Program-made: the position numbers and the translations under genes
Part shown: positions 12,519 to 26,602 of the stretch, piece after piece
How positions within the stretch are numbered: position 1 is the stretch's first letter
How the letters are laid out: every line of letters begins with the position of its first letter
NCBI GenBank assembly: GCA_910575585.1
Contig: CAJTGF010000064.1
Location: 1-32,660 of the forward strand
Origin: Clostridiaceae bacterium
GTDB taxonomy: Bacteria; Bacillota; Clostridia; Lachnospirales; Lachnospiraceae
Direction of reading: 5' to 3'
DNA length: 32,660 nucleotides
Notes under the pieces: model-generated
Database searches by the model: none
What the model was told of the DNA's origin: nothing
What the model saw: the letters and a program-made list of their open reading frames with translations, nothing else

Positions 12519-13013
12519 ATGACGGACCGGATCAGACAGGTGACCATGGAGGATCTGGACAGGGTGACCCAGGTGGAGGCGGTCTGTTTTCCGCCTGCAG
12601 AGGCTGCGGGGAAGGAGGCTTTCAGGGCAAGGATCGAAGGATTTCCTGAAAGTTTTTTTGTGGCGGAAAAGGACGGAGCGATTATCGGATTTATTAATGG
12701 GGCTGTGACAGATGAGCGGACCATAAGGGATGCGATGTTTGAGGACGCGTCGCTCCACGATCCGGAGGGATGCTATCAGAGTATTTTCGGGCTGGATGTG
12801 GCGCCGGAGTGGCAGCATCGGGGGATTGCGGGAGAATTGATGAGGCATATGATCAAGGATGCCAGAAGGCGGGGGTGCAAGGGGCTTATCCTTACCTGCA
12901 AGGACAGGCTTATTGGGTTTTATGAAAGATTCGGGTATAAAAGCCTTGGGGTGTCGGCGTCGGTTCACGGCGGCGCTGTGTGGTATGATATGATTCTGGA
13001 GTTTTCGGAATGA
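12519..13013 (+). CDS. GNAT family N-acetyltransferase
   Basis: A 164-residue acetyltransferase. The acetyl-CoA motif A region reads LDVAPEWQHRGIAGELM, giving the Q/R-x-x-G-x-G/A pyrophosphate loop. The motif B region near the end has FYERFGYKS. Preceding strands include FFVAEKDGAIIGFINGAV, resembling the arylalkylamine acetyltransferase-like branch; the acceptor substrate is unknown. ATG 12519 has AAAGGAGA nine bases upstream. The same frame is open upstream of it, over the response regulator end, but that part lacks an RBS and family similarity. The stop overlaps the rlmH ATG (ATGA), so the pair is likely cotranslated. Confidence 0.88.
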   Translation: MTDRIRQVTMEDLDRVTQVEAVCFPPAEAAGKEAFRARIEGFPESFFVAEKDGAIIGFINGAVTDERTIRDAMFEDASLHDPEGCYQSIFGLDVAPEWQHRGIAGELMRHMIKDARRRGCKGLILTCKDRLIGFYERFGYKSLGVSASVHGGAVWYDMILEFSE

Positions 13014-13489
13014 GGATCACCGTGGTGGCAGTGGGAAAGATCAAGGAGCGGTTTTTTGAGGACGCTGTAAGGGAGTATGAAAAGCGCTTGGGGCGGTACT
13101 GCAAGCTGGAGATCATTCAGGTGGCTGATGAGCGGACGCCGGACGGAGCCGGGGAGGCTTTGGAGCGGCAGATCAAGGAGAAAGAAGGGGAGCGGATCCT
13201 GGCTCATATCAGGGACGGAGCCTATGTGATCGCTCTGGCCATTGAGGGGAAGATGCTGGATTCGGAGGAACTGGCGCAGAAGCTGGGACAGCTGGGAGTA
13301 GGCGGCGTCAGCCAAGTGGTGTTTGTCATAGGCGGGTCTTTGGGGCTTTCAGGAGCAGTGCTGGAGCGGGCGGATTACCGGCTGAGTTTTTCGAAGATGA
13401 CGTTTCCTCATCAGATGATGCGGGTGATCTTGCTGGAACAGGTGTATCGGGGGTTTCGGATCTTGAATCATCAGCCGTACCATAAGTAA
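13010..13489 (+). CDS. rlmH: 23S rRNA pseudouridine-1915 N3-methyltransferase
   Basis: SPOUT-class methyltransferase that modifies pseudouridine 1915 of 23S rRNA in helix 69, using SAM. The 159 residues match the family length. It begins MRITVVAVGKIKE and has the knot region FVIGGSLGLS with the following SFSKMTFPHQMMRVILLEQ block. The C-terminus is HQPYHK, where PYHK is the conserved end. Its last codons form the integration site of the element that follows (13472-13486), as for staphylococcal SCC cassettes, and the gene itself remains intact. It overlaps the GNAT gene by four bases. Confidence 0.97.
   Translation: MRITVVAVGKIKERFFEDAVREYEKRLGRYCKLEIIQVADERTPDGAGEALERQIKEKEGERILAHIRDGAYVIALAIEGKMLDSEELAQKLGQLGVGGVSQVVFVIGGSLGLSGAVLERADYRLSFSKMTFPHQMMRVILLEQVYRGFRILNHQPYHK
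13472..13486 (+). repeat. Left attachment site (attL candidate)
   Basis: CAGCCGTACCATAAG, the codons for Q-P-Y-H-K at the rlmH end. It matches 23824-23838 at 14 of 15 positions in direct orientation. This is the same place in rlmH that staphylococcal cassette recombinases use. Confidence 0.8.
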
Positions 13490-13544
13490 AGGCGAAAGAG
13501 GACGGATGTTCTTGGGAATAAAAGAGAATAAGAGTTGTAATTTT

Positions 13545-13577
13545 AACCCCATGGGAGTTTGAGGCTTCCATGGGGTT
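13545..13577. terminator. Bidirectional terminator after rlmH
   Basis: A ten-bp stem AACCCCATGG (13545-13554) with CCATGGGGTT (13568-13577) has TTTT before it and TTTTA across its right end. It lies between rlmH and the convergent HTH gene and is on the element side of attL, so the element seems to bring a replacement terminator for rlmH. Confidence 0.8.
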
Positions 13578-13580
13578 TTA

Positions 13581-13823
13581 CTATTGGTTGTGTAGTTCAT
13601 CTGGTGGAATATATTCTATCAGGTCGTGCAAATCACATTCCAGGGCATAGCATAATCTTGATAGTACAGCAATATCCAGACGCTGAACCTCATTTTTACA
13701 ATACTTTTTCAGTTGTGTTCTTTGCATTTCAGCCCTAAAAGATAATTTATTGATAGAAATATTTCGCTTTTTCATTAACTCTTCTAAATGTATCTTAACA
13801 GTACCAAATTCAAGGTCTTTCAT
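13581..13823 (-). CDS. Small Xre/Cro-type HTH regulator
   Basis: An 80-residue protein that is almost entirely one helix-turn-helix domain (ELMKKRNISINKLSFRAEMQRTQLKKY, then IAVLSRLCYALECDLHDLIEY), of the Cro/C1 type with the usual C-terminal 'DL-YIPP' ending. RBS GGAGGAATG precedes the ATG at 13823. It is transcribed away from the cargo genes starting at 13979. A palindromic site and a good promoter lie between them (13875-13925), so it probably represses that operon and perhaps itself. It may act as the element's control switch. Confidence 0.85.
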   Translation of the reverse strand: MKDLEFGTVKIHLEELMKKRNISINKLSFRAEMQRTQLKKYCKNEVQRLDIAVLSRLCYALECDLHDLIEYIPPDELHNQ

Positions 13824-13874
13824 ACATCATTCCTCCATCCTATATATTTCTATGATATTTTATGTAACTAGGTA

Positions 13875-13925
13875 TTGAAATGAGTAAGAAAATATAGTAT
13901 ATTTATATGAGTAGATATATACTCA
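13875..13925 (+). promoter_or_regulatory. Cargo-operon promoter with palindromic operator
   Basis: TTGAAA (13875-13880), a 17-base spacer and TATATT (13898-13903) form a sigma-A promoter for the gene at 13979. Immediately downstream, TGAGTA (13908-13913) and TACTCA (13920-13925) form an inverted repeat with a 6-base gap. Another TGAGTA copy lies inside the promoter spacer (13881-13886). These are candidate operators for the divergent HTH protein. Confidence 0.65.
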
Positions 13926-13978
13926 ATCGAAATTAGTTTTTTCTATAAATTGGGTTTACTTCTTATAGGGAGGGCTTT

Positions 13979-14296
13979 ATGAATACAAAAAAAGATTATC
14001 TTAGTAAAACAATTACGGTAAATACAGAGGATGCGCTAAAAAATGCCGTAAAAGTTGGATATGGCATTATCTATATTCAAGGAGATTATGCGAATAAAAT
14101 TGCAGGAAAAATGAGGAATAGCGATACTGGAAATTTGTTGTCTAATGCAGGTCTTGCGATTGGCTTTTTCTTTTTTACACCTTTGTTTTTGGCAGGGCTT
14201 GTGGGGAAGATTCTTACAAAGGATATGTCAAAATATAAAATTGTTGCAGTTGGAGATTATGAGGTACAAATCAAACATAAATCAATTAAAGAATAA
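13979..14296 (+). CDS. Small membrane-anchored protein, unknown
   Basis: A 105-residue product that I do not recognise. The first 55 residues are polar and mixed alpha/beta (KTITVNTEDALKNAVKVGYGIIYIQGD). One strongly hydrophobic segment lies at about 60-80 (GLAIGFFFFTPLFLAGLVG), and a short basic tail with KYKIVAVGDYEVQIKHK follows. RBS AGGGAGGG precedes ATG 13979. It is the first gene behind the operator-bearing promoter and is followed 17 bases later by another small gene, forming a two-gene unit under the HTH regulator. That arrangement resembles regulated accessory or defence pairs, but no function is shown. Confidence 0.75.
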   Translation: MNTKKDYLSKTITVNTEDALKNAVKVGYGIIYIQGDYANKIAGKMRNSDTGNLLSNAGLAIGFFFFTPLFLAGLVGKILTKDMSKYKIVAVGDYEVQIKHKSIKE

Positions 14297-14313
14297 CAGG
14301 GAGGATATTTAAA

Positions 14314-14595
14314 ATGGGATTATTTAAGAATTTAGCAGGAAAGGCACTGGATTTAATGACAGAAGATACCGTTTATTCAGCTTCACAAAGAGATTATGAT
14401 TCGTCTTATGAATTACTTCTTAAAGCATCAGACAATAATTACTTGGATTACGTTTCTGCGTATGTCAATCTTATAAATAAGAAAAAATATCCAGGGGGAA
14501 ATTTTTATAGAGCAATAATGGATACTATTAATGATAGACCATCAAATATTCAGAATAAGGCGAGGCAGCTTCTGAATTCCGCAAAAAAGAAGTAA
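14314..14595 (+). CDS. Small helical protein, unknown
   Basis: A 93-residue soluble protein. It starts MGLFKNLAGKALDLMTEDTV, an amphipathic N-terminus, followed by predicted helices with SYELLLKASDNNYLDYVSAYVNLINKKKYPGG. This looks like a single SEL1/TPR-like helical hairpin repeat, though that is only an impression. The tail is Lys-rich. RBS AGGGAGG precedes ATG 14314. It is cotranscribed with the preceding membrane-anchored gene. Unrecognised. Confidence 0.75.
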   Translation: MGLFKNLAGKALDLMTEDTVYSASQRDYDSSYELLLKASDNNYLDYVSAYVNLINKKKYPGGNFYRAIMDTINDRPSNIQNKARQLLNSAKKK

Positions 14596-14663
14596 TTTGC
14601 GTTTGTATCGAAATCGTAAATATATATTATTACCCTGAAATCATGTAGAAAGGGGTGATATAT

Positions 14664-14741
14664 ATGCAGGCAGGAATCTTTATCAATGCATGTGTCATAA
14701 CAGTAGGTGTACTGGTGGCATTAGAGCATGTAACCGCATGA
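14664..14741 (+). CDS. 25-residue hydrophobic mini-protein
   Basis: Encodes MQAGIFINACVITVGVLVAL followed by EHVTA. RBS AGAAAGGGGTG lies 5-8 bases upstream of ATG 14664. It is a single membrane-length hydrophobic stretch with almost no charge. A perfect 14-bp terminator starts 20 bases after the stop, so it is the last open frame of its transcript. Possibilities are a type I-toxin-like peptide, a small membrane regulator or a leader peptide for the DUF1643 gene behind the terminator. Only the ORF, RBS and terminator are directly seen. Confidence 0.55.
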   Translation: MQAGIFINACVITVGVLVALEHVTA

Positions 14742-14760
14742 CAACAGAACCACACAATGG

Positions 14761-14803
14761 AATAAGGGCAATCAGCGTAACAGTTGATTGCCCTTATTTT
14801 TTT
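14761..14803 (+). terminator. Strong terminator after the mini-ORF
   Basis: A perfect 14-bp stem (14761-14774 with 14785-14798), a 10-base loop and a following T-run to 14803. It separates the cargo operon from the DUF1643 gene at 14822. If read through conditionally it would work as an attenuator, but no competing hairpin was seen. Confidence 0.9.
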
Positions 14804-14821
14804 ATGCAAAGGAGCAGTCAG

Positions 14822-15466
14822 ATGGAGAAAAACGTAACAGATAAGTTTGTAATGGAACGAAAAACTATTTTCGACAAGGCAAGAAAAAAGCGGTTTGAGC
14901 TTACTTTTCAGATTCAGGGAGAGAAAGAGCAGAAAAAAATTCTGGTAATCGGCTTGAATCCGGCCAGTATGGATATAAAAGTGTTGGATACCACAACCAC
15001 ATTTATTTTAAATAATCTGCTGCCCATGGGTTATACAACGATTACTATATGCAACCTGTATGCAGACCTGTGCAAGAAACTGAAACCCTCCGAGATTGCC
15101 AATAACAGGGAAAACCGGGCATATCTTCGGGATGTGTTAAAGCGTAAATTTGACACAATCCTTATCGGCTTTGGAAATACATTCACCGGAAATAAATTTG
15201 TGTCAGAGGAAAAACGTTATTTAAAAGAACTTTTAAAGGATTACAAGGACTGCAGCATGGATTTGGTGGATGAAGCTGGAAAATACGCAAGATTAAGGGC
15301 AACACATCCGTTAATGGCTGGAAGGTATTATCCGGGACAATGGAAATTAAGGCCATATCAATTTGAGGAAGTGAAAAAAGAAGCAAAAGAGGAGGCTCCA
15401 GGTGGAACAGATAAAAACGGTGAGAATCAGGAACATCAGCCAGTTGTACCTGCTAAAGCAGATTAA
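14822..15466 (+). CDS. DUF1643 family protein
   Basis: A 214-residue cytosolic protein with the DUF1643 signature: ILVIGLNPASMDIKVLDTTT near residue 40, then CNLYAD, a GFGN block and the terminal THPL...YYPGQWKLRPY. The biochemical role of the family is unknown. DUF1643 genes are regular residents of staphylococcal SCC elements, which strengthens the comparison made for this element. ATG 14822 has AAAGGAG upstream; the frame is open further upstream through the terminator, which is not coding. The C-terminal 20 residues (after about 194) are low-complexity and overlap the next gene by 65 bases. Confidence 0.82.
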   Translation: MEKNVTDKFVMERKTIFDKARKKRFELTFQIQGEKEQKKILVIGLNPASMDIKVLDTTTTFILNNLLPMGYTTITICNLYADLCKKLKPSEIANNRENRAYLRDVLKRKFDTILIGFGNTFTGNKFVSEEKRYLKELLKDYKDCSMDLVDEAGKYARLRATHPLMAGRYYPGQWKLRPYQFEEVKKEAKEEAPGGTDKNGENQEHQPVVPAKAD

Positions 15467-15770
15467 TTCCTGCTTAGGAAAACGGGAAATTCCCAAAGAG
15501 GTTATTCACAGAATGTTCCGCATTGTCCATTCAGGGAAACTTGGAAAAAAGGGCTTTTTGGTTTTGTGCCCGAATAAGATAGAAGATGATTATTATGGCA
15601 TAGAGGAGGCCGTTGGTATGTATCCAGGCCGGATGTGGCTGGATGAGAATATGGGAACTATAGAGGTAAAAAGTGGCTGCCGGAAGAAAGCCGACTGGTA
15701 CATAGCCTATGCGAAAGTAAACGGCCAGAGGATTTATGTTCTTTATCAACTAAAGGAACGGCATAATTAG
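15402..15770 (+). CDS. Conserved-looking 122-residue protein, unknown
   Basis: Starts at GTG 15402 with AGGAGG six bases upstream, inside the 3' end of the DUF1643 gene (65-base overlap in another frame). The protein is mixed alpha/beta, with IPKEVIHRMFRIVHSG and KADWYIAYAKVNGQRIYVLYQL. I do not recognise a family. The long overlap plus a good internal RBS suggests coupled translation with the DUF1643 gene and a shared role. A gap of 10 bases separates it from the next ORF, so 14822-16661 looks like one operon. Confidence 0.75.
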   Translation: MEQIKTVRIRNISQLYLLKQINSCLGKREIPKEVIHRMFRIVHSGKLGKKGFLVLCPNKIEDDYYGIEEAVGMYPGRMWLDENMGTIEVKSGCRKKADWYIAYAKVNGQRIYVLYQLKERHN

Positions 15771-15780
15771 GAGGGATTAT

Positions 15781-16518
15781 ATGACGGGTGTAAGATTTAA
15801 AGACTGGGAAACATTTTTAAGATATGTTGGGAGTCAGGAGAAGATGAAGCATAAGGAAAAATGGAGGAAAGCCACAGAATTATGGGACATGGACGACCTG
15901 GAACCGGGAGAGTGGAAGGGCATGGAAAAGATATTGTCACCCTCTGACTATGAGGAATTAGCAATGTGTTTGGGGACTGTGGAAGTAAGGTCATTCCGGT
16001 TGCCTTTTGAATCAGACGAAATGATTTTCTATGCCGCAGGGAAGGAAGAAGGCGACGGAGGTTATTTCTGTATGGGCTATGGAATTGTGAATGAATCAGA
16101 TATAGAAGACAAAAATAACCGGTTTAGGCCAATGCCGGAGGAATCGAACAGGGAGAAGGATTATTATTATATTGGAACGGAACGGGACTACTGGGAAACT
16201 TATCCGGTTCTGCAAACGTATCTGCCGGAAAAGATACTGGAATACCTTGCTTCACAGGTTGCCATATTGGACAGCAATTATGGAGCGGACAGAGATGTGC
16301 AGGGCGGCATGGGCGGCTTCTGCGCTGTTATCCCGAAACTGGATGAAGCCGCAAAGAAAGCCTACCGACAGATACTGGAGAAGCATTATATCCAGGAATC
16401 TATGTATGAATATCTTGATACGGTCACGGTCAGCGGCACAGAGTGGGTAGAAGCCCTGTATCTTACCAACAATGATTATGGAATCATATTGATTTACCGG
16501 AAAGGAGTCGAAGCATGA
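15781..16518 (+). CDS. 245-residue acidic protein, unknown
   Basis: A soluble acidic protein with no membrane segments. Visible blocks include WDMDDLEPGEWKGMEKILSP, a YYYIGTERDYWETYP segment and a C-terminal part ending in GTEWVEALYLTNNDYGIILIYR. RBS AGGAGG precedes ATG 15781. The stop overlaps the ATG of the 48-residue mini-protein (ATGA), so the two are translationally coupled. No family recognised. Position between DUF1643 and the replication gene makes it an element accessory gene. Confidence 0.75.
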   Translation: MTGVRFKDWETFLRYVGSQEKMKHKEKWRKATELWDMDDLEPGEWKGMEKILSPSDYEELAMCLGTVEVRSFRLPFESDEMIFYAAGKEEGDGGYFCMGYGIVNESDIEDKNNRFRPMPEESNREKDYYYIGTERDYWETYPVLQTYLPEKILEYLASQVAILDSNYGADRDVQGGMGGFCAVIPKLDEAAKKAYRQILEKHYIQESMYEYLDTVTVSGTEWVEALYLTNNDYGIILIYRKGVEA

Positions 16519-16661
16519 TTTTAGGATTTTTAGCGGCTGTGGGAAGTACCATAGCATCCACCGTTATTATTGAATCCGTGACGGCAGGCGTTGGACTGGG
16601 AATTTCCATCTATACAGCGTCAAAGTGTGCGAAGCAGAGCGGCAGAACACGGAGAAAGTAG
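16515..16661 (+). CDS. 48-residue hydrophobic mini-protein
   Basis: MILGFLAAVGSTIASTVIIE starts a Gly/Ala/Ile/Thr-rich hydrophobic stretch of about 38 residues, ending in a strongly basic tail (CAKQSGRTRRK). The ATG overlaps the previous stop as ATGA, and a GGAGT-type RBS (AAAGGAGTCG) sits upstream. It is immediately followed by a 14-bp terminator. Small membrane or pore-like peptides with a basic tail can be toxins, holin-like or membrane regulators; none is proven here. It is the second hydrophobic mini-ORF in this element that directly precedes a terminator. Confidence 0.6.
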   Translation: MILGFLAAVGSTIASTVIIESVTAGVGLGISIYTASKCAKQSGRTRRK

Positions 16662-16665
16662 GGGC

Positions 16666-16714
16666 AAAAAGAATATGTGGGGATTGGCGGTCAATCAACA
16701 CATATTCTTTTTTT
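16666..16714. terminator. Bidirectional terminator
   Basis: A perfect 14-bp stem AAAAAGAATATGTG (16666-16679) and its complement (16699-16712), with A-run and T-run at the outer ends. It lies between the rightward mini-protein gene and the convergent leftward gene that stops at 16729. Confidence 0.9.
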
Positions 16715-16728
16715 GTTGATTTAAAATA

Positions 16729-17339
16729 TTACCATAAATTTAATTTGGTATCAAAATCATCTATACTTTTAAAAACCTTGAGATTGTCAAAGTCAATGGA
16801 TTCTTTGTTCTCATCTAAGATATATAGAAATAATTCTTTTGCTAATTTTTTAAAATCGATATGCTTCATTTTCATTATGTATGGAAAATTGCTTCTTGTG
16901 CTAAGTGTACATAGCTTTAAAAGAATACTGCGAATCTGGAGTATGCGCATTTGCTGTGCCGATGGAAAGTCAGAAATTCCGGCATGAATAATCTGGGCGA
17001 AAAAAAACTCCACATCCTGAATCGATGAAGAGTCATAATATTTTAAAACGTTTCTGATTTTATTATAGGTAATTTTATCTGAAGTATAATAATTGGCAGT
17101 TAAGATAAAAATGTTACAAAAATATGGTGGGCATTGATAGCGGAATTTTCCAGGGGCTGTAAAAAGGATAAATTGTCATTATCTTTTTTTGTGATTTCAA
17201 AAAACAACTGGAATAAACTTTGTTTCCATTTATTATTGCAGCCTTCATCTGCAGTTTTGCTACTATTAACTTTATGGTAAATTTCTGGGCTGTTAAGAAG
17301 TTTTTCCTTACTTATAAATTTTACATTTGGATTGTTCAT
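16729..17339 (-). pseudogene. Frameshifted leftward accessory gene, unknown
   Basis: On the minus strand an ATG at 17339 with AAGGAGG upstream opens MNNPNVKFISKEKLLNSPEI and runs about 78 codons, stopping near 17100. A second frame continues from about 17118 to 16729 with NIFILTANYYTSDKITYNKI, KYYDSSSIQDVEFFFAQIIH and a Lys/Asp-rich tail. Adding one T to the T5 run at 17122-17118 joins them as ...HHIFCNIFILTANYY..., giving a protein of about 205 residues. The gene is very AT-rich and faces the others. No family recognised. A sequencing error or slippery-site frameshifting would be alternatives to decay. Confidence 0.7.
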
Positions 17340-17557
17340 CTTCAATCTTCCTCCTTAAAAATGGATAAATTGTTAATGGTGCTATAATGTATTGTTCTGA
17401 GATGAGAATTAAATGTTAAATGACATGGAATAAAGAACAATAAAGAACGTGTTAGTCAAACCTTCCCCTTTTTTCTATAAAAAAGTGATTTTTGGGTAGA
17501 GTATTATGCCTTTGGAGGCTGTAAAATAAAGCTACAAAAAATAACAGGAGGAAAATA

Positions 17558-20071
17558 ATGAAAGATTCTAATATACTTCACAGCGAAGTGAGAAAAACAT
17601 TTGAAACCCTGATAGAGTCAGGAGTATTTACAGAAGTGAGAATATTAAATACCAAACAAGGAACTCTTTCAGGCTATTACAATGATGTAGATAAGCTGAT
17701 TGAGCATATTCAGCGTTATGATGGCAATTACAATATTTACATCACAATGAACGCTTTAAGCGAAGGAATCGAGGCCAGAGGCAAGAACCATCTAAAGAGT
17801 TATGCGAAGAATACAACCAGCGACAAGGAAATCCGCTGCCGTAGATGGATTCTCATTGACTTAGACCCGGAACGTCCGGCCGGAATTTCCAGCACAGAGC
17901 AGGAGTTAAAGCTGTCTGAGGAATTGGGCAGGAAAATTCAGGGTTATTTAACAGACTGTGGATTCCCGAAGCCTGTAACCGCATTAAGCGGAAACGGCTT
18001 TCATCTTTTATATCCTGTGGAACTTCCCAATACACCGGAAATGACAAGTCTGGTAAGGGGCTTTCTTGGCGCATTGGATTCAAGGTTTTCTACAGAGCAG
18101 GTAAAGGTCGATATAACAACCTATAATGCGGCCAGAATTACAAAGCTTTATGGTACAGTTTCCTGCAAGGGAGATTCCACAGAAGAACGTCCACACAGGC
18201 GTTCCAAAATCCTGTATGTACCGGAGAAACGAGTGCCGGTAGCGATTGAGCTGTTACAGCAGATTGCGGCGCAGTGTGTGGAGAAAGGGAATAAAAAGAA
18301 AACAGTGAATAGAAATGAGAAACGTGAGCCTGCCAGAAGCATATCAGGGAGCAAGATGGAGTTTGATTTGCGTTTATGGCTGGAATCCCATGAGATTCCC
18401 GTCGCAAGGGAAAAGCAGGTAGAGAATGGCATGTGCTATGTTTTGGAGTCCTGCCCATGGAATCAGGAACATTCCAAGGACAATGGGGCTTATGTCATAC
18501 AGTTTGATGATGGTGGGATTGCGGCTGGCTGTCACCATGATAGCTGTAAGGAAGAAAACTGGGAAACCCTCTGGCGTATGCTGGAGGGTGAGAAGCCTAT
18601 GCCGTCAGTGAAAAAAGCAAAGACAGAGAATCTTCCGTCAGCAGAAAAAGAAAGCCCGGTGGATGTTCTTTTAAGACTGATAGAGGAGCAGGGTCATATT
18701 CCGTTCCGAAGCACAGAAGGGGAGGCTTTTATCCAGATTCCAAACAAGGGCAGTTTTGTGAATTATCCGCTTAAATCGGAATATTACCAGATGTGGCTGA
18801 GGAATTTGTATTATCAGACCTACAACCGGGGCAGTCGGAATGATATGATTCAGGCAGTCATGGAAACTCTTGTGGCAAAAGCGCACTGCCAGGGAAAGGA
18901 ATATCCGGTATACAATCGGTTTGCTTTCTATGAGGGCCGCCTGTATTATAACCTGGCGAACGAAGATTCCGCAGTGCTTTGTGTTGACGAGTCGGGAACG
19001 AAATGCTGCAATGAGCCGCCGGTCAGGTTGATAACAAGAAAAACCTTACGCCCACAGCCTATGCCGCAAAAAGGGGAATCGTTTAGGAAACTGATGAGTA
19101 AATATTACCATTTTGCCAGTAAGTCAGACCGGATTCTCCATAACGTTATATTGGTTGTCAGGCTCATAACAGGGATTGAGCAGCCTATCGTTATCTACAA
19201 AGGCGGCAAAGGCTCCTCAAAGACCACTTCCATGGAAATGGATAAACGCTGTCTGGATATATCCAGCAACAATGTAACGGTCATGCCGAAAAATGAAGAG
19301 GACTTTCTGCTTCTTCTGGAATCACAGGATATTGTCTGTCTGGACAACATGGATTCCATTACAAAAAGTCAGGCAAATATTTTCTGCCAGGTAGTGACGG
19401 GGGCAACAGCGGTTAAGAGAAAGAAGTATTCAGACAGCGAATTGTGCGAAATCAATATAAAGTCTGTTGTGTATATGAATGGAATCCATCTGCTTTCCGA
19501 CCGTTCCGATTTTCTTGACCGCTGTGTATTTCTGAATATGAAAGCCATATCATCAGAAAAACGCAGGAGCAAAAAAGACGTCATGGAAGAATTTGAAGCG
19601 GATAAGCCTTGTATCCTTTATAGAATGTTTGAGTGTCTTTCCAGAGCTATGGAAATTGAGCCTTTGATAGAAGTAAATATAGACGACCGACTTCTTGATT
19701 TTTTAAAATGGGGGTGTGCCGTAGCAGAGGCTATGGGGTATGGACAGGAGAAATTTTTAGAGGCATATCAGAAAAACCGTACTCGTCTGAACGAGGAGCT
19801 TTTGGAAGAAGATGAGGTTGCCGGGGCGGTCATGGATTATCTGGAGGAATCCGGGAATTTTGAAGGGACAATGAGCGAACTAAGCGCAGAATTGTTTGAT
19901 ATGCTCTATGAAAAAGGAATGTATGCCAGCAATAAAATCAAACAGGCGAACCACTTATCAAGGAGATTAAAAGAACTGGAGACCGGACTGCACAATGTTG
20001 GGATTTCCGTGGAGATAGGGAAAAACAACGGAAAACGTTTTGTAAAAATCAGCAGAGAGAATACAGAATAA
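17558..20071 (+). CDS. Primase-helicase replication protein
   Basis: An 837-residue multidomain protein. The N-terminal part (about 1-240) looks like an archaeo-eukaryotic-type primase/polymerase fold: metal-binding D101-x-D103 in ILIDLDPERP, the SGNGFHL motif with H149, and VDITTYNAARITKLYGT. A Zn-knuckle-like region follows (C299, H305, C325, C330). The C-terminal half carries an AAA+/SF3-like helicase with Walker A GGKGSSKTT at 549-557 and Walker B DIVCLDN at 591-597. It presumably unwinds and primes the element's origin, much as Cch/primase proteins do in SCC elements. RBS AGGAGG precedes ATG 17558. The 218 bases before it hold only AT-rich sequence and a tandem ATAAAGAAC. It ends on an iteron-like repeat. 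Confidence 0.85.
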   Translation: MKDSNILHSEVRKTFETLIESGVFTEVRILNTKQGTLSGYYNDVDKLIEHIQRYDGNYNIYITMNALSEGIEARGKNHLKSYAKNTTSDKEIRCRRWILIDLDPERPAGISSTEQELKLSEELGRKIQGYLTDCGFPKPVTALSGNGFHLLYPVELPNTPEMTSLVRGFLGALDSRFSTEQVKVDITTYNAARITKLYGTVSCKGDSTEERPHRRSKILYVPEKRVPVAIELLQQIAAQCVEKGNKKKTVNRNEKREPARSISGSKMEFDLRLWLESHEIPVAREKQVENGMCYVLESCPWNQEHSKDNGAYVIQFDDGGIAAGCHHDSCKEENWETLWRMLEGEKPMPSVKKAKTENLPSAEKESPVDVLLRLIEEQGHIPFRSTEGEAFIQIPNKGSFVNYPLKSEYYQMWLRNLYYQTYNRGSRNDMIQAVMETLVAKAHCQGKEYPVYNRFAFYEGRLYYNLANEDSAVLCVDESGTKCCNEPPVRLITRKTLRPQPMPQKGESFRKLMSKYYHFASKSDRILHNVILVVRLITGIEQPIVIYKGGKGSSKTTSMEMDKRCLDISSNNVTVMPKNEEDFLLLLESQDIVCLDNMDSITKSQANIFCQVVTGATAVKRKKYSDSELCEINIKSVVYMNGIHLLSDRSDFLDRCVFLNMKAISSEKRRSKKDVMEEFEADKPCILYRMFECLSRAMEIEPLIEVNIDDRLLDFLKWGCAVAEAMGYGQEKFLEAYQKNRTRLNEELLEEDEVAGAVMDYLEESGNFEGTMSELSAELFDMLYEKGMYASNKIKQANHLSRRLKELETGLHNVGISVEIGKNNGKRFVKISRENTE

Positions 20072-20192
20072 GACGATAAGGACAGTAAGGACGATAAAAA
20101 ACAGAAAAAAGGTAGAGAAGTCTATCGAAAAAAAAGAGCATTGCTAAATATATAAAAATTTTTTTTGATAAAAAAACCGTCCTTACCGTCTT
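20070..20192. repeat. Inverted iterons around an AT-rich core (origin candidate)
   Basis: AAGACGATAAGGACAGT (20070-20086) is repeated in inverted form at 20176-20192, 15 of 17 positions. An 89-base A/T-rich core with long A- and T-runs lies between. The left arm continues into another TAAGGACGAT unit (to about 20094), so the motif is iterated. Its place directly after the primase-helicase stop is where such elements can carry a replication origin. A terminator-like long-range hairpin is the alternative. Confidence 0.5.
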
Positions 20193-20242
20193 TATTGTTC
20201 CGCTTAAAAAAATCATGCCTGTATATTGGAGGAATCTGGAAG

Positions 20243-20338
20243 ATGAATGAGTTAAAACAAGAGGAATGGCAGGAAACGCTTATGTCAATCCTGTCACAGC
20301 TTATTGTTGAGTTCTATTTAAAAGAGAAGGAATCGTAA
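20243..20338 (+). CDS. 31-residue small protein before the recombinase
   Basis: Encodes MNELKQEEWQETLMSILSQL followed by IVEFYLKEKES, a single amphipathic helix flanked by charges. RBS TTGGAGGAAT lies 7-10 bases before ATG 20243. It sits between the origin-like repeat and the serine recombinase. Such a place would suit a recombination directionality or accessory peptide, but the sequence gives no direct proof. Confidence 0.55.
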   Translation: MNELKQEEWQETLMSILSQLIVEFYLKEKES

Positions 20339-20354
20339 TTACATAAGAAAAATA

Positions 20355-20383
20355 CAGACTGGGAGTTTCAGGCTCCCGGTCTG
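20355..20383 (+). promoter_or_regulatory. Hairpin in the recombinase leader
   Basis: An eleven-base stem (20355-20365 with 20373-20383, one G-T pair) and a 7-base loop with no T-run after it. It lies 62 bases before the recombinase ATG. It may be an RNA structure that tunes recombinase expression or a weak terminator. Confidence 0.45.
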
Positions 20384-20445
20384 GAAGGATAGATAGAATA
20401 TATATTATAGATTTGAAATATAAGATAGAAAGGCAGGGACAACAA

Positions 20446-22119
20446 ATGTCTGACACAATGATAAAAAAAGTAGCAATTTATTGTCGTGTATCAACACAGG
20501 AACAGGCAGAGGAAGGGTATTCTCTTGAGGAACAGCAGCGTTTAATCCGTGAATATTGCCAGCAGAAGAATTATGAAGTGGCAATGGTTTATGAAGACGC
20601 CGGAATCAGTGGAAAGGATATCCGCCACCGACCGGCCATGCAGCAGCTTTTGGAGGACGCCTCTAAAAAGAAGTTCCATCTGGTCATGAGCTGGAAGATA
20701 AACCGAATCAGCCGGAAATTATCAGATGCCATTAAAATTGTAGAAACGTTAGAGAAATATGGAATTGGCTACCAATCTTATTCAGAACCTTTTGAGTCCA
20801 GCACGCCAGCGGGGAAAATGCAGTTTTAGATGATGGCGTTGGTTGGCGAATTTGAACGAAATACCATTGCCCAGAATGTTAAAATGGGCATGAGAGCAAA
20901 AGCCATGTCCGGGGAATGGTGCGGTGGGATTCCACCATTTGGATATTGCTGGGTGACAATGGAGGGGACGGAAAACCATGGAAGAAGAAAATCAAGACTG
21001 GAGGTGGTGGAACGAGAGGCGGAGGCAGTGCGCCTTATGTTCCAGCTCTATGCCTCCGAAAAGGGATACAAGGCTATTGTGGGACGGATTAACAGGGAAG
21101 GCTATCGAACTAAGTTGGATAACGCTTTTTCAGTGGCACAGATAAAATCAATTCTCACAAATCCGGTATATATTGGGAAGGTGCGTTATGACGTAAGGAG
21201 AGACTGGAATGAAAAACGAAGGAACAATATCAATCCCAATCCTATTGTTGCAGACGGAAAACATGAAGCAATCATACCGGAGGAGTTATGGGAACAGGTT
21301 CAGTTTATGATTTCCCAAAAGAATGGAAAGCCAGCCAGAATCTACGACGGGGAATATCCGCTGACAGGTATTCTAAAATGTCCTCAATGTGGCGCAGGCA
21401 TGGTGATTTCCAGGACAACGAACCGAAACAAAGACGGCAGCAAACAGAAGCTTACCTATTACGCCTGCGGGAACTGGAAAAATAAAGGAACCACCGTATG
21501 CCACAGCAATATGGTCCGGGTAGAAAAAGCGAACACGTTTGTGTACAATCAACTGGATAAACTGTTAAGCGATGAGAAATTTTTTAAAGAGGTTGTGGGC
21601 AGAGTTAACCGGGAGCATAGAATCTTAAAGGAAAACGCCATAAAGGAACGGGGAGTCCAGGAAAAAAAACTGGAAAAAATCAAGGTTCGCCAGCAGAGAA
21701 ACCATGAACTTTACGAAGACAGCGAGATTTCCAGGGAGGAATTTTTAATACGCAGGGAGGAATTAAACCAGCAGCTATGTGAACTTCGTGAAAAACAGAC
21801 GGAAACATCCATGGTGATTCTGGAAGAAGGGAAAAAAGAAATTCCCAAAGAAACTATCCAGGAGATATTAAAAAATTTCAGCAGGATTTTGTCCAGCGAC
21901 ATTGACCGTACCATCCGAAAACGTCTGTTACATCTTTTGATTTCAGAGATTACAATCGACCAGCACCGGAACATTGATTCCATTAAATTGAAGCTATCAG
22001 ATGAGCTGATTCAGTTTCTACAGGGCTATGGCGGCACACCTCCAGACGGTGCGCCGTCTGTTTTTGTGTTTCGGGAACTGGGGATTAAGACCATGGATTT
22101 GGAGCTTGTGTTATCATAA
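20446..22119 (+). pseudogene. Large serine recombinase interrupted by an amber codon
   Basis: Site-specific recombinase of about 557 codons. ATG 20446 opens the resolvase domain with nucleophile S16 in IYCRVSTQEQ. At 20827-20829 a TAG interrupts the same frame within ...GKMQF*MMALVGEFERNTIAQN, where relatives have Gln (CAG to TAG, one transition). The remaining 429 codons are intact: recombinase domain, Zn ribbon (CPQCG...YACG...VCHSN, about 21381-21500), and a long coiled coil. Catalytic Ser and DNA-binding parts are thus split. This could be an inactivating mutation, amber read-through, or restart at the ATGATG straight after the stop, which has no clear RBS. Length resembles CcrC-type enzymes. 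Confidence 0.85.
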
Positions 22120-22149
22120 ATAAATTTAATCAGAAAGAAGGATGAAAAG

Positions 22150-22722
22150 GTGATGAAAAACAATTTGAACCGGTATATTGCGGCAGAATATGAAAATTTG
22201 AAATCAGAGCTGGAGCAGAGGGAGTTTGTGGAAAAAATAAGGTTCCTGATGATGGCAAAGGATAAAGATTTTACAGATTACTATTCCAGCCGAACCCTGA
22301 CAAAAGAAGAATTTTATTCGGTGGCAGATACACTCTATGCACTGAACAACCTGTGGATGTTGTCAGGATTTATCCGTCAGAACAGACAGGTCTTGTTTCA
22401 GGAAGTCCGAAGTAGCATGAACGGCCTGAAAAGTCCGGATTTCACGGAAACGTGCAGATTTGGAAAGGAAACCATGCTGTCAAGAATGTTCCAGGTCATG
22501 GAACGATTTCAGTTAAATAACTGTATGGTGGCAGAGGATGCGGGTTCGGGTTATACTGTGGCTACCCGGAGGATGAAAGCATACTCATTTACAACAAGGA
22601 GTGGGAAAAATGTGCCGCAGATTATCCTGCAGGGGAACTGGGTGGGGCAGTGGGGCTTTGAGATTGGCTGCAGCGTGTCTGTGGAGTGTTACCAGAATAA
22701 GCTGGTTATTTTAAAAGACTGA
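22150..22722 (+). CDS. Protein with C-terminal SymE-like domain
   Basis: A 190-residue protein with two parts. The C-terminal 40 residues (VPQIILQGNWVGQWGFEIGC, then a VSVE...KLVILKD end) match the SymE/AbrB-fold pattern 'PxIxLxGxWLxxAGFxxGxxVxV...GxLVI'. SymE is an SOS-induced, AbrB-derived toxin or nucleic-acid-binding protein controlled by antisense RNA in E. coli. The N-terminal 145 residues are helical, with LYALNNLWMLSGFIRQ, and belong to no family I recognise, so this is a fusion. Start is GTG 22150 or ATG 22153 after AGAAAGAAGG. It follows the recombinase directly. Confidence 0.75.
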   Translation: MMKNNLNRYIAAEYENLKSELEQREFVEKIRFLMMAKDKDFTDYYSSRTLTKEEFYSVADTLYALNNLWMLSGFIRQNRQVLFQEVRSSMNGLKSPDFTETCRFGKETMLSRMFQVMERFQLNNCMVAEDAGSGYTVATRRMKAYSFTTRSGKNVPQIILQGNWVGQWGFEIGCSVSVECYQNKLVILKD

Positions 22723-22786
22723 AAAAATATTGTGGTCTGTTCGTATGAAATATGATAAAATATCAGTAAGAGCAGGAGGTGAGGCC

Positions 22787-23746
22787 ATGAATACAGATAC
22801 TACCATAGCGAAAAACATCCGTGTGGCTGATGAGAAAGCCAGCTATGATGCGGCCTGCAAGCGGCTGCTTTCGGAGAAGATTATTCTGGCATGGATTATG
22901 AAGAACTGCCTGGAAGAATACCGTGACTGTGATGTGGAAGAGATTGCGGAAAAATATATTGAAGGTACGCCGCAGGTGGGAGAAGTGGCAGTTGCAGCGG
23001 ATGAAACCAACCGTGTTTCTATGATACAGGGAATTGGAAACGAGGACACTTCTCTGACGGAAGGGTCAATTACCTATGATATCCGCTTTTTCGCGATAGC
23101 TCCTGTATCCAGTGAATTGATTCGTTTGATTATCAATATAGAAGCCCAAAATGATTTTTATCCGGGTTATCCATTGATAAAAAGGGGAATCTATTACTGC
23201 AGCCGGATGATTTCTGCCCAGTATGGAACAGAGTTTACAAATTCCCACTATGAGAATATCAAAAAAGTATACAGCATATGGATTTGTATGAATCCGCCAA
23301 AGAGCCGTGAAAACAGCATTACCCGTTATTACATTGCGGAAGAAAATCTGGCGGGCAGTGTAAAGGAACGGAAAACGGATTATGATTTGATGGCGGCTGT
23401 CATGATTTGTCTTGGGAAAGAGGGAGATTCGGGTACAGATTTATTGAAATTGTTGAATGTGCTTCTGTCCACGGAGACAGGTTCACAGGACAAGTGCCAG
23501 ATATTGGCGGAAGATTTTCATATCAGAATGACTTTAGCCTTGGAAAGTGAGGTGTCGCTTATGTGTAATTTAAGTAAGGGTGTGGAGGAGAAAGGAATTC
23601 AAAAGGGAATTGATAAAGGAATAACAGCTATGATTTTAACACTGAAAGAGCTACAAATATCAAGAGACGTTATTCTGAAACAAATCTGTGAAAAGTTTGG
23701 TCTGACAGAAGAAACAGCAGAAACGTACTTAAAAGAAATATGTTAA
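22787..23746 (+). CDS. Rpn/PD-(D/E)XK nuclease-transposase family protein
   Basis: A 319-residue member of the Rpn-like family annotated as 'recombination-promoting nuclease/putative transposase', very frequent in Lachnospiraceae. The nuclease core reads YDIRFF...LIINIEAQNDFYPGYPL, with the Asp and ExQ positions of the PD-(D/E)XK fold (Gln in place of the usual Lys, as in Rpn). A KGVEEKGIQKGIDKGI repeat near the C-terminus and the tail ICEKFGLTEETAETYL are typical. ATG 22787 follows AGGAGGTGAGGCC. It is inside the right end of the element. Its tail is related to the fragment at 24768-24830. Confidence 0.88.
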   Translation: MNTDTTIAKNIRVADEKASYDAACKRLLSEKIILAWIMKNCLEEYRDCDVEEIAEKYIEGTPQVGEVAVAADETNRVSMIQGIGNEDTSLTEGSITYDIRFFAIAPVSSELIRLIINIEAQNDFYPGYPLIKRGIYYCSRMISAQYGTEFTNSHYENIKKVYSIWICMNPPKSRENSITRYYIAEENLAGSVKERKTDYDLMAAVMICLGKEGDSGTDLLKLLNVLLSTETGSQDKCQILAEDFHIRMTLALESEVSLMCNLSKGVEEKGIQKGIDKGITAMILTLKELQISRDVILKQICEKFGLTEETAETYLKEIC

Positions 23747-23748
23747 AC

Positions 23749-23785
23749 ATTTCAGGCAGAGCATTTTTGGTGTTCTGTCTGAAAT
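23749..23785 (+). terminator. Hairpin after the Rpn gene
   Basis: Twelve-base arms 23749-23760 and 23774-23785 pair with one G-T, with a 13-base loop. They start right after the stop codon. The following T-run is weak (AATAATATTACGAGATTTTT), so efficiency is uncertain. Confidence 0.5.
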
Positions 23786-23823
23786 AATATTACGAGATTT
23801 TTCGCACTTAGGTATGTTATGGA

Positions 23824-23838
23824 CAGCTGTACCATAAG
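23824..23838 (+). repeat. Right attachment site (attR candidate)
   Basis: CAGCTGTACCATAAG matches the rlmH-end site 13472-13486 except for one C to T change. In the rlmH register it would read Q-L-Y-H-K. Sequence after it belongs to the ancestral or another insertion-derived flank. Confidence 0.8.
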
Positions 23839-23981
23839 CCAGGATGAGACCAATTTTCATATACCACATAAATGCCAGATATATTGTCGCCATATTCAAA
23901 AACACAGTGGTTTGTCAGGCCGGAATGTGATAAAATACAGACAGAATTATGAAAGACATTAGAATTATTTTGGAGGATGCC

Positions 23982-24767
23982 ATGATACTTGTCACAGGGG
24001 CAAATGGATTTGTCGGCCATAAAATAATGGAGATGCGCAAAGATACAGCTGCCGCGCCGTCTCTTCGCAATGCAACACAGGAAGACATGAATCGCATCAT
24101 CGGAGAAAGCGATGCGGAGGTCATTATCCATACGGCGGCTATTTCTGATATAGGAGCGTGCCAGGCGGATCCGGATGCCTCTTATTATGCAAATGTGCAA
24201 GTCCCGCTTTTTATTGCAAGAGCATCAAAGGGCCGGAAATTGATCTGCTTCAGTTCCGATCAGGTTTACAGCGGCTGCAGTGAAAAAGGGCCATATTGTG
24301 AGGATACGGTAAAACCAGGAAACGTATATGCAGAACACAAGTTGGAAATGGAGCAGAGGGTATTGGAAATCGATTCTGATGCAGTTATGCTCCGCGCTGA
24401 ATGGATGTATGATTACTATTTGAAACGCTCCAACTATTTTATGAATATCCTCAATGCAAAAGAAACGGTCTCATTTAGCTCCGCACAGTTCAGGGGTATT
24501 ACATATTTGAGAGAAGTGGCGGAAAACATGGGAAAAGTAATTGCATTGCCAGGCGGCATATATAATTTTGGAAGCGAAACAACAAAATCCATGTATGATA
24601 TTACTCAGGAATTTATTGATTTATTGGGCAAAAAAGTGAGATTAGAAGATGCTTCTCCAAGACATAATCTGTGGATGAATTGTGATAAAGCTAAAAAGTA
24701 TGGTGTGAAATTCAGTACTGTGACAGATGGTTTGATCAAATGCGCGAAAGATTATAATTTGATTTAA
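23982..24767 (+). CDS. RmlD-like NAD(P)-dependent sugar-nucleotide reductase family protein
   Basis: A 261-residue extended short-chain dehydrogenase. The N-terminal TGANGFVG (residues 5-12) is the cofactor loop, and the catalytic YxxxK is YAEHK in NVYAEHKLE (near 116), with FSSDQVYSG before it. The sequence resembles dTDP-4-dehydrorhamnose reductase-type proteins, but no rhamnose or surface-sugar genes are near, so the substrate is unknown. I chose ATG 23982 with GGAGG upstream at normal spacing; ATG 23949 is less likely. It is AT-richer than the core genes and sits between attR and a broken Rpn tail, so it may be imported. Confidence 0.85.
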   Translation: MILVTGANGFVGHKIMEMRKDTAAAPSLRNATQEDMNRIIGESDAEVIIHTAAISDIGACQADPDASYYANVQVPLFIARASKGRKLICFSSDQVYSGCSEKGPYCEDTVKPGNVYAEHKLEMEQRVLEIDSDAVMLRAEWMYDYYLKRSNYFMNILNAKETVSFSSAQFRGITYLREVAENMGKVIALPGGIYNFGSETTKSMYDITQEFIDLLGKKVRLEDASPRHNLWMNCDKAKKYGVKFSTVTDGLIKCAKDYNLI

Positions 24768-24830
24768 ATCTGTGATAAGTTTCAATTAACTGAGGAAACA
24801 GCAAGGACGTATTTGTCAGAAGCGTTTTAA
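24768..24830 (+). pseudogene. 20-codon tail of a second Rpn-family gene
   Basis: Immediately after the reductase stop, 20 codons read ICDKFQLTEETARTYLSEAF and stop at 24828-24830. This matches the C-terminal tail of the Rpn gene that ends at 23746 (ICEKFGLTEETAETYLKEIC) at 14 of 20 positions. No start codon or rest of the gene is present. It is a remnant left when the reductase block replaced or was inserted into that gene. Confidence 0.75.
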
Positions 24831-24885
24831 CGGTTTTGGTTTACGCGGGAACAGCACAGAAGAACAAACAGGAACCGAAGGACAT

Positions 24886-24913: not shown

Positions 24914-24969
24914 TGCTTGTATTAAGATTTAAAATGAGGCAGCCATTAAAGATGCTGCAAAGGAGACTT

Positions 24970-26469
24970 ATGGTACATCAAATTGAGTATAAAGACGGGA
25001 GCAATGCGGTATCTTGCTATCTGCCTGAAGATTTGGGGCCGGATAAAAACGCGGCGGCGGAGCTGCGCCGGCTGACAGAGCTTAAGGAGACGGTGGAAAG
25101 GCTGTCGGCGGCGCCGGGGTTTTTTGCAGGCGGCGGGCAGCGGGTTGAGCGGATTATCTGCACGCCGGATTTTCACAAAGGTTCAGGGATTCCCATCGGC
25201 ACGGTCATGATGACAAAAGGATTTGCAGTCCCACAGGCGATGGGGAATGATATTAACTGCGGTATGCGGTTTTATATCACGGATTTGTCGGAAGAGAAGA
25301 TTCGGGAAAAGCTTCCACAGCTGAAAAAGAAGATCCGCCATATCTTTTTTGAGGGCGGCAGGCAGATTCCCATGACAGGAAGGCAGCGTCAGGCCATGTT
25401 CTGCCACGGCCTTGAAGGGCTTTTGGAGACCAGCGGCGATGGCAGGGGGCAGGGATTGTGGCGGTATTATGAGCGGGAGGTCCAGGAAAAGCAGCTAACC
25501 CGCACTGTGTTTCGGGGGAGTCTGAAGGCGGATGATACGGAGGGGCTGGAGGATTTTATGGGCAGCTGGGGACAGCTGACGTATGACGACCAGATTGGGA
25601 CCATTGGGGGCGGCAATCATTTTCTGGAGGTGCAGAGGATTGCCCGGATTTATGACGGACAGACCGGAGCTGCCTGGAATCTGAAGAAGGGGGCTGTGGC
25701 GGTGATGCTCCACACAGGCTCTCTTACGATTGGCCATCACAGCGGGCTTTTGAACCGCAATCTTTGCCGGGATATCTACCCGGATGGGGTTATGCACCCG
25801 GAAAACAAGATTTATGTCATACCGGAGGGTTGTGAGCGGTCGGGGGCGTGGAGACGGTTTTGGTCGGTGTCCGGCAATGCGGCCAATTTTGGATTTGCCA
25901 ACCGGATGTTTCTTGGATTTATGATTCAGCAGGTTTTTGACAGCGTACTGGGGGAATGCAGGATGGAACTTTTGTATGACGCTCCCCATAATTATATCTG
26001 GAAAAGACGGATTGGCGGTGAGGACTTTTATATCCACCGAAAGGGGGCCTGCTGTGCCGGGGGATGTGAGGACATGGCAGGCACGGAGTTTGCCTATTAC
26101 GGGGAACCGGTGATGATTCCCGGCTCCATGGGCAGTTCCAGCTATCTGCTGCGGGGACTGGGAAATGAGGACTGCCTTTGGAGCGCCAGCCACGGCGCCG
26201 GGCGGAAAAAGTCCCGGGGAGATGCGGCTAAGGGGAATGATGAGCAGTTTCGGCGGTTTATGGAGAGGTTCCACGTTATCACGCCGGTTGACCCGGAACG
26301 CAGCGACTTAAAGGGGAGATGGGATATTTTGAAAAAATGGGAGGAGTCGGTGCGGGCGGAGGCGCCTTACGCCTACAAAGATATTGATAAAGTGATTGCG
26401 GTCCATGAGGAGCACGGCATGGCGGCGCCGGTAGCCCGGATGGATCCGATTTTTACGGTGAAAGCTTAA
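24970..26469 (+). CDS. rtcB: RtcB-family RNA ligase
   Basis: GTP- and Mn-dependent ligase that joins 3'-phosphate (or cyclic phosphate) and 5'-hydroxyl RNA ends. The 499-residue chain carries the full motif set in order: DFHKGSGIPIG, GNDINCGMRF (metal Cys), IGGGNHFLEVQ, HTGSLTIGHH, APHNYIW, HRKGACCAG, PGSMGSSSYL and the guanylylation His in SASHGAGRKKSRGDA. All metal and GMP residues that I can identify are present, so it looks active. I chose ATG 24970, with AAAGGAG just upstream; 24934 and 24952 are in-frame alternatives with weaker support. No prfH or archease gene is adjacent. The role could be repair of damaged tRNA or rRNA, inferred from the family. Confidence 0.93.
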   Translation: MVHQIEYKDGSNAVSCYLPEDLGPDKNAAAELRRLTELKETVERLSAAPGFFAGGGQRVERIICTPDFHKGSGIPIGTVMMTKGFAVPQAMGNDINCGMRFYITDLSEEKIREKLPQLKKKIRHIFFEGGRQIPMTGRQRQAMFCHGLEGLLETSGDGRGQGLWRYYEREVQEKQLTRTVFRGSLKADDTEGLEDFMGSWGQLTYDDQIGTIGGGNHFLEVQRIARIYDGQTGAAWNLKKGAVAVMLHTGSLTIGHHSGLLNRNLCRDIYPDGVMHPENKIYVIPEGCERSGAWRRFWSVSGNAANFGFANRMFLGFMIQQVFDSVLGECRMELLYDAPHNYIWKRRIGGEDFYIHRKGACCAGGCEDMAGTEFAYYGEPVMIPGSMGSSSYLLRGLGNEDCLWSASHGAGRKKSRGDAAKGNDEQFRRFMERFHVITPVDPERSDLKGRWDILKKWEESVRAEAPYAYKDIDKVIAVHEEHGMAAPVARMDPIFTVKA

Positions 26470-26493: not shown

Positions 26494-26524
26494 CCGCAGC
26501 CCTTTTGCGCTGCGGGGATTTTCG
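26494..26524 (+). terminator. Terminator after rtcB
   Basis: CCGCAGC (26494-26500) pairs with GCTGCGG (26509-26515), loop of 8 bases, followed by GGATTTT. It is a modest terminator separating rtcB from the sporulation operon. Confidence 0.55.
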
Positions 26525-26549
26525 GATTATGGGGCGGTTTTTCTGAGTT

Positions 26550-26579
26550 GTCATTTTCCCCTCTTGTCCCACATATATT
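26550..26579 (+). promoter_or_regulatory. Sigma-E-type promoter of spoIIIA
   Basis: GTCATTTT (26550-26557) and CATATATT (26572-26579) are separated by 14 bases. The mother-cell sigma-E consensus is about GTCATATT-N14-CATACAAT, so both boxes and the spacing fit. It lies 24 bases before the spoIIIAA GTG. In B. subtilis the spoIIIA operon is sigma-E dependent. Confidence 0.7.
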
Positions 26580-26602
26580 GAAAGAAAGAGGAGGGGACAA
26601 AG

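Follow-up and report, generated by a model that had tools for sequence, protein, structure and literature searches.

The question raised by this locus was whether the AT-rich block behind rlmH in a Clostridiaceae bacterium (GTDB family Lachnospiraceae; assembly GCA_910575585.1) is a mobile unit with defined ends, and of which type. The window, which is the whole stretch of DNA analysed, was contig CAJTGF010000064.1 (32,660 nucleotides). Positions 13474-23825 were read, with a probability of about 0.9, as a genomic cassette that inserts site-specifically and is of the rlmH "cassette chromosome" type. The 15 bases that end the rlmH coding sequence ahead of the stop codon (13472-13486, CAGCCGTACCATAAG) recurred in direct orientation at 23824-23838 (CAGCTGTACCATAAG) with 14 of 15 bases identical, as the first-pass annotation had claimed and as a pattern scan of the window confirmed. 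These were the only two sites on the + strand of the window with up to three mismatches to the repeat, and the - strand held no copy with up to one mismatch. The enclosed block had a G+C content (GC) of 40.3%, compared with 52.9% on its upstream side and 54.5% beyond 24934, which bore out the AT-rich composition also claimed for it. The rlmH gene gave a single match in its own genome, and 54 of 61 genomes had a match to it at E 1e-20. Neither a core pattern guessed before the sequence was inspected nor any Rfam family at gathering scores had a match in the window.

The genome collections held one genome per species, so the ends were tested through copies with other neighbours. Locus L150 (CAJTGE010000002.1) contained, in order, rlmH, a cassette left end (LE), a cassette matching window 14618-23838 (97.1% identity over 9222 nt), a 142-bp unit termed here the micro-cassette, and another cassette; the match ended exactly at 23838. 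The copy in COE1 (L116), for which rlmH was not seen, was 97.0% identical to window 17558-23838 and again ended at 23838, where a micro-cassette began. The copy in 1XD42-76 (L117, genome G331) matched window 13475-22725 (96.8%) and started at 13475 behind a micro-cassette, not behind rlmH. The boundaries first proposed, at the repeat copies 13472-13486 and 23824-23838, were thus confirmed by copies with different neighbours, which start or stop there. The rlmH regions of L150 and G331 were only 73.5% and 71.8% identical to that of the window; because the cassette copies were about 97% identical and G331 belongs to another genus, the cassette is judged from these identities to have moved between genera. 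Genome G011 carried the same element behind rlmH over two contigs, of which C109 carried rlmH and matched the window to 16478, where the contig ends (93% including flank and rlmH), and C138 started at window 16352 (98% identity) with its match ending at 22528. Both covered the same 127 window bases, as adjoining contigs would.

The cassette ends formed an imperfect dyad of about 50 bp, which is the kind of site that a large serine recombinase would be expected to use; the dyad centre was the CA dinucleotide with which the 15-bp repeat begins. Junctions of a cassette right end (RE) with an LE were gathered by pattern, which gave 23 distinct RE-LE junctions, many of them related and so not independent. 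The best dyad centre was the same in 23 of 23, and pairing extended over 13-19 of 25 positions (mean 16.1); mononucleotide shuffles averaged 10.5 and reached at most 16. By analogy with serine integrases, the recombinase would act at the CA central dinucleotide, and the two copies of this centre (13472-13473 and 23824-23825) predicted a circle of 10,352 bp. A large serine recombinase would join the cassette site (RE, two central bases and LE; about 50 bp) to the last codons of rlmH, and rlmH would remain intact because LE supplies its own copy of these codons. Every insertion would leave a core able to take the next cassette, and cassettes would therefore stack in tandem. The probable role of the fused primase-helicase of the cassette is replication of the excised circle or second-strand synthesis following transfer. 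The cargo (helix-turn-helix (HTH), DUF1643, SymE-like and Rpn genes) may be insulated by terminator-like hairpins close to the ends; 12 such sites were observed in the whole of 13400-24000 against 7.8 expected.

Tandem RE-LE junctions were present in G003, G007, G022, G156, G220, G224, G310, G321, G331, G390, COE1 and C48_71. The order in G224 was rlmH, a cassette with recombinase, an RE-LE junction, a small cassette and an RE. Such composite arrays were seen in relatives; in the window, a second cassette was represented by no more than a probable remnant. Among the 26 genomes of the genus, the RE pattern (up to two mismatches) occurred in 5 and the degenerate LE pattern with zero mismatches in 6 (G000, G003, G007, G010, G011 and G022). 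An LE directly behind rlmH was flagged in 7 of 30 rlmH loci inspected from the 54 genomes with rlmH; 6 looked real, and the flag in L018 looked like chance. LE also occurred away from rlmH, inside a type I restriction gene of G003 (T1R_D3-like, 5e-20), at a second place in G003 and on contig C69 of G010. The first of these, at about 1091 of L061 (reverse strand), lay in a gene for subunit R and is a possible secondary insertion site.

A recombinase relative was encoded in 167 stretches from 84,980 species genomes scanned, and the family counts given here refer to the best 80 of the 167, in 79 loci. An rlmH-type core was present on the recombinase strand in 63 of the 79 loci, namely in 63 of 69 at 39% identity or more and in 0 of 10 below 39%; the six misses at the higher identities were L115, L166, L168, L174, L178 and L181. 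Two of 79 loci had the core on the opposite strand, and the reversed-letter control gave none in 79. In 19 of 79 loci, one of them weak (L179), the recombinase had rlmH on its own strand at up to 10 kb upstream, and 14 of these 19 had a repeat of the last 15 rlmH bases downstream (up to two mismatches). Across the 79 loci, the primase-helicase was matched in 28 and DUF1643 in 21. Recombinases of the same clade near rlmH came from other Lachnospiraceae, Clostridium and Bacilli, and examples were Clostridiaceae bacterium 14S0207 (complete genome), Clostridium thermobutyricum, Clostridium cuniculi and Sporolactobacillus laevolacticus. The closest relatives, among the best 80 of 167, were from Lachnospiraceae and Clostridium. 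Within 397 sampled family genomes, a recombinase at E 1e-90 or better occurred in 6, own genome included; 28 of 62 candidates were scored in the own genome and at most three per genome in the family search, and weaker or extra copies may be missed.

The recombinase tree had 52 rows; 31 of the 79 recombinases were removed because they were short or had stops in the range translated, and CcrC was not among the rows. Forty-two rows formed one clade (100/99), consisting of 41 core-bearing recombinases plus L115, a fragment without core. Staphylococcal CcrA and CcrB and two phage integrases fell outside this clade; CcrA and CcrB had long branches, the join of CcrB was not settled and the bootstrap was not fully settled. 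Two loci of the family showed further traits. The recombinase of Brevibacillus gelatini (L178, 10001-12255) pointed towards rlmH at 165 bp from the rlmH end and had the core on the strand opposite to its own, perhaps a further orientation of such cassettes. The 14S0207 cassette carried a C-5 cytosine DNA methylase gene (PF00145; L134, 1337-3211) beside a gene without Pfam match, possibly restriction-modification cargo.

The micro-cassette, with both cassette ends in 142 bp, was present in 8 genomes, of which G007, G321 and L143 had it immediately after rlmH, and G003, G331, G156, COE1 and C48_71 after a cassette RE. It was located at 13399-13540 in both L116 and L150, at 1918-2059 in L117, at 968-1109 in L143 and at 12331-12472 in L044. 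Pairwise identity was 72-100% in a gap-free alignment, only COE1 and C48_71 being identical; the copy in G321 had a degenerate RE and no LE after it. No reading frame of at least 20 aa lay wholly inside the COE1 copy, and the four such frames that overlapped it were short (23-62 aa) and all crossed its borders. A promoter inside it was considered and rejected, the sole promoter-like match in the 400-base stretch scanned lying outside, with one expected by chance. The micro-cassette was found in 5 of the 397 sampled family genomes, two of these partial (G310 and G220), in a search that scored two candidates per genome and may have missed extra copies. Viral contigs had no exact match to its pattern, and the window held no micro-cassette. 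Different small units were a 151-bp unit in G010, within the about 300 bp that separate rlmH from spoIIIAA there, and a 575-bp unit in G003 that shared the right half. Tentatively, and at slightly less than even odds, the micro-cassette, in which no gene was seen, is proposed to move on its own in trans, with its length held by selection (8 copies, identity as low as 72%, no indel). Within rlmH arrays it might act as landing site or as regulatory element. The micro-cassette is the most novel part of the findings; it raises the question of how little DNA a cassette needs to move and, if the proposal is true, few mobile units with site-specific insertion would be smaller.

The large serine recombinase that the first-pass annotation had placed in the block was recovered, with Resolvase, Recombinase and zinc-ribbon domains on an intact copy, but the window gene itself was interrupted by an in-frame TAG (20827-20829). 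Because of this TAG, and because intact close relatives occur elsewhere, the window copy of the cassette is probably stranded, unless the enzyme is supplied in trans. The best NCBIfam models for the recombinase were CcrB and CcrC, to which the intact relative scored 371 and 343 bits, below the equivalog level (cut-off 900). The staphylococcal controls scored 825 bits for CcrA (cut-off 700) and 1137 bits for CcrB (cut-off 900).

Several observations weighed against the cassette reading. Besides the TAG in the window recombinase gene, the 98% relative in G331 was also damaged (TGA reported; 26 stops in one translated range). No more than 20 of 79 loci showed rlmH, with flanks of at most 10 kb and many contigs ending earlier. 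Neither another LE nor a stop codon followed the window attR (23824-23838), and in several RE-LE junctions the dyad was no better than in the best shuffle. A search with the right flank found no empty site among the 26 genomes of the genus, only G024 being matched, with other genes upstream; the close relative G006 had no LE behind rlmH, but its downstream region differed. One alternative was an AT-rich block that had arrived by homologous recombination or insertion sequence (IS)-mediated events, its 15-bp repeat being due to chance. In its favour, the rlmH-spoIIIAA region was variable in the genus, G003 holding there a transposase set which we take to be IS66-type. The recurrence of these ends, to the base, in several genomes whose neighbouring sequences differ, the dyad formed by RE and LE, the conserved RE-LE junctions and the presence of only two such sites in the window made this the least probable of the alternatives, and scarcely credible.

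An origin as a remnant of a prophage or satellite, or as an integrative mobilizable element with a serine integrase, lying at rlmH by chance, was judged very unlikely. The helicase half resembled the primase-helicase of SaPI5 (SaPI, Staphylococcus aureus pathogenicity island) and the primase half a phage PrimPol, phage integrases were related (28-31% identity, best 20 of 130 records) and the recombinase matched PHROG integrase family 95; however, the scan of cassette proteins recognised no phage structural gene and no relaxase, the 15 stretches of viral contigs that matched the pattern did not encode any recombinase relative, the two phage integrases tested fell outside the core-bearing clade, and cassettes typically form tandem arrays in which the ends are shared. 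Less probable still was a true staphylococcal cassette chromosome (SCC) recently transferred from Bacilli. The scores of 371 and 343 bits where the cut-off is 900, the exclusion of staphylococcal CcrA and CcrB (both, however, long branches) from the 42-row clade, the closest relatives in Lachnospiraceae and Clostridium (best 80 of 167), the fused primase-helicase and the different gene order outweighed the shared target gene, the inverted-repeat ends, the DUF1643 gene, the helicase before the recombinase and the best NCBIfam models being CcrB and CcrC.

The genes of the cassette are listed in Table 1. The primase-helicase of the first-pass annotation stood as a protein with primase and helicase folds, now read as a fused PrimPol and SaPI-Rep-like helicase and not as an established Cch. 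This 837-aa protein had no Pfam match at E up to 1, its best fold match was the SaPI5 primase-helicase, and its gene directly preceded the recombinase gene. The HTH regulator and the DUF1643 gene claimed earlier were both recovered by their profiles. The 122-aa protein was rejected as a DUF960 protein, having no significant BLASTP similarity to a staphylococcal one. The 245-aa protein had no Pfam match and no PDB fold match at E 0.001 (best E 0.01); shorter homologues, mostly of 116-137 aa, occurred in Clostridium and some other loci (e.g. L134, 4187-4549), and the family was long in Lachnospiraceae and short in Clostridium. A 21-bp inverted repeat (90%) with a 5-bp loop lay at 16666-16712, between the 245-aa and primase-helicase genes, with the self-match also in the G011 and G331 copies. 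PADLOC had no match among 9 window proteins.

Table 1. Features of the rlmH locus in the window, with recurrence given as matches across the 79 recombinase loci.
Feature	Position	Strand	Evidence	Loci (of 79)
rlmH, 159 aa; 3' end is the insertion site	13010-13489	+	PF02590 SPOUT methyltransferase, RlmH-type, 4.8e-60	
attL half of direct repeat; predicted central dinucleotide CA at 13472-13473	13472-13486	+	14/15 match, dyad centre	
Cassette left end (LE), TACCATAAGTAAAGGCGAA, at and directly after rlmH end	13478-13496	+	motif recurs behind rlmH or cassette right end in other genomes	
Terminator-like hairpin near left end	13545-13577	+	hairpin scan; single site is weak evidence	
Cro/C1-type HTH regulator, 80 aa	13581-13823	-	Pfam HTH_26, 3e-18	12
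Small protein, 105 aa	13979-14296	+	open reading frame (ORF)	1
Small protein, 93 aa	14314-14595	+	ORF	1
DUF1643 protein	14690-15466	+	PF07799, 6.4e-14	21
122-aa protein, co-occurs with DUF1643	15402-15770	+		14
Recurrent cassette protein, 245 aa	15781-16518	+		28
Short ORF, closest copies only	16729-17013	-		4
Fused primase-helicase, 837 aa: N-terminal PrimPol (AEP) and C-terminal SaPI-Rep/D5-like helicase	17558-20071	+	fold comparison	28
Large serine recombinase, interrupted by in-frame TAG	20413-22119	+	ORFs; uninterrupted 98% relative at L039 4063-5769	
In-frame TAG in Resolvase (catalytic) domain	20827-20829	+	sequence; domain position from intact copy	
Protein with C-terminal SymE-like domain, 190 aa, directly 3' of recombinase	22150-22722	+	PF08845, 5e-8	18
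Rpn-family nuclease/putative transposase, 338 aa, variable right-hand cargo	22730-23746	+	TIGR01784 3e-7 and PDDEXK_2 1e-4, both below cut-off	7
Hairpin just inside right end	23753-23781	+	read by eye, as were like stems at other right ends	
Cassette right end (RE), TTTTCGCACTTAGGTATGTTATGGA, imperfect inverted repeat of LE	23799-23823	+	motif and dyad comparison	
attR half of direct repeat; predicted central dinucleotide CA at 23824-23825	23824-23838	+	14/15 match; L116 and L150 alignments end exactly at 23838	
Probable second-cassette remnant: rmlD-like sugar-nucleotide reductase (23949-24767) and fragment	23839-24885	+	GC 40.9%; RmlD_sub_bind 5.9e-28	
rtcB	24934-26469		profile match	
spoIIIAA	26603-27580		profile match	

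AT-rich DNA ran on beyond the right repeat to about 24.9 kb. Its rmlD-like gene was 88% identical to a G310 gene that starts about 100 bp behind an RE-LE junction, and this stretch is therefore probably the remnant of a second cassette whose LE has been lost. The same rmlD-like gene occurred in G024 before sequence matching window 26507-26619. A 40-nt repeat (73%) preceded the Rpn gene (22723-22762) and the rmlD-like gene (23898-23937), and a fragment at about 24770-24832 resembled, by eye, an Rpn C-terminus; the two together suggest an older Rpn unit at the second-cassette remnant. The adjacency of rtcB and spoIIIAA was common to the window and G007 and is probably chromosomal.

The element shared with the SCC of staphylococci (CcrAB or CcrC) the target at the 3' end of rlmH, the direct repeats and the degenerate inverted-repeat ends, a helicase gene before the recombinase, a DUF1643 gene, one or two large serine recombinases and composite tandem elements. 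Its recombinase, however, was far below the Ccr equivalog cut-offs, and its DUF1643 gene lay upstream, whereas that of the staphylococcal locus compared lies downstream of ccrAB (order: DUF927, ccrA, ccrB, SAUGI, DUF960, DUF1643). The recurrent 245-aa and SymE-like proteins and the gut clostridial hosts also set it apart. According to the main text of PMC10061031, SCC helicases are related to SaPI Rep helicases, the SaPI helicase being preceded by or fused to a primase and many SCC elements having a polymerase pair in its place. The fused PrimPol-helicase of the window is therefore SaPI-like inside an SCC-like frame, and apparently unlike the Pol-MP pair or the DUF927 (Cch) helicase of SCC; the DUF927 helicase is that of the staphylococcal locus compared, and the helicase of other SCC elements is of a different type (PMC10061031).

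The Enterococcus cassette chromosome (ECC; PMC6222049) also targets rlmH with an att site of about 50 bp that has dyad symmetry and a core with TATCATAA, but has a ccrAB pair, an Enterococcus host and an average of 42 ORFs. The rlmH islands of Bacilli with Pol-SSB primases (PMC10061031, main text) likewise lie mostly downstream of rlmH, have the recombinase just after the helicase, form tandem composites, and had their second end located by the repeat of the last rlmH codons; they carry A-family polymerase-SSB pairs where the window element has the fused PrimPol. The C. difficile and C. perfringens examples in that text sit at ssrA, not rlmH, and the main text had no match for Lachnospir, Roseburia, Eubacterium or Hungatella. 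A search of the open literature, outside which subscription journals mostly lie so that the evidence is weak, found no description of this rlmH cassette family in Lachnospiraceae. The wider family of rlmH-targeted cassettes suggested by the first-pass annotation was upheld by the clade near rlmH in other Lachnospiraceae, Clostridium and Bacilli and by the core in 63 of 69 loci, but rlmH cassettes are already published in staphylococci, enterococci (PMC6222049) and other Bacilli (PMC10061031), and what is new is this variant. Read from its genes and sites, the element works like a staphylococcal SCC, but the variant found here in Lachnospiraceae and Clostridium has a recombinase clade of its own and a PrimPol fused to the helicase. 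Most of what is known of rlmH cassettes comes from methicillin resistance in staphylococci. A large family of related elements in Clostridium and gut Lachnospiraceae widens the reservoir in which this mode of moving genes evolved; it offers gut-commensal hosts, and new recombinases whose target in the chromosome is defined and conserved.

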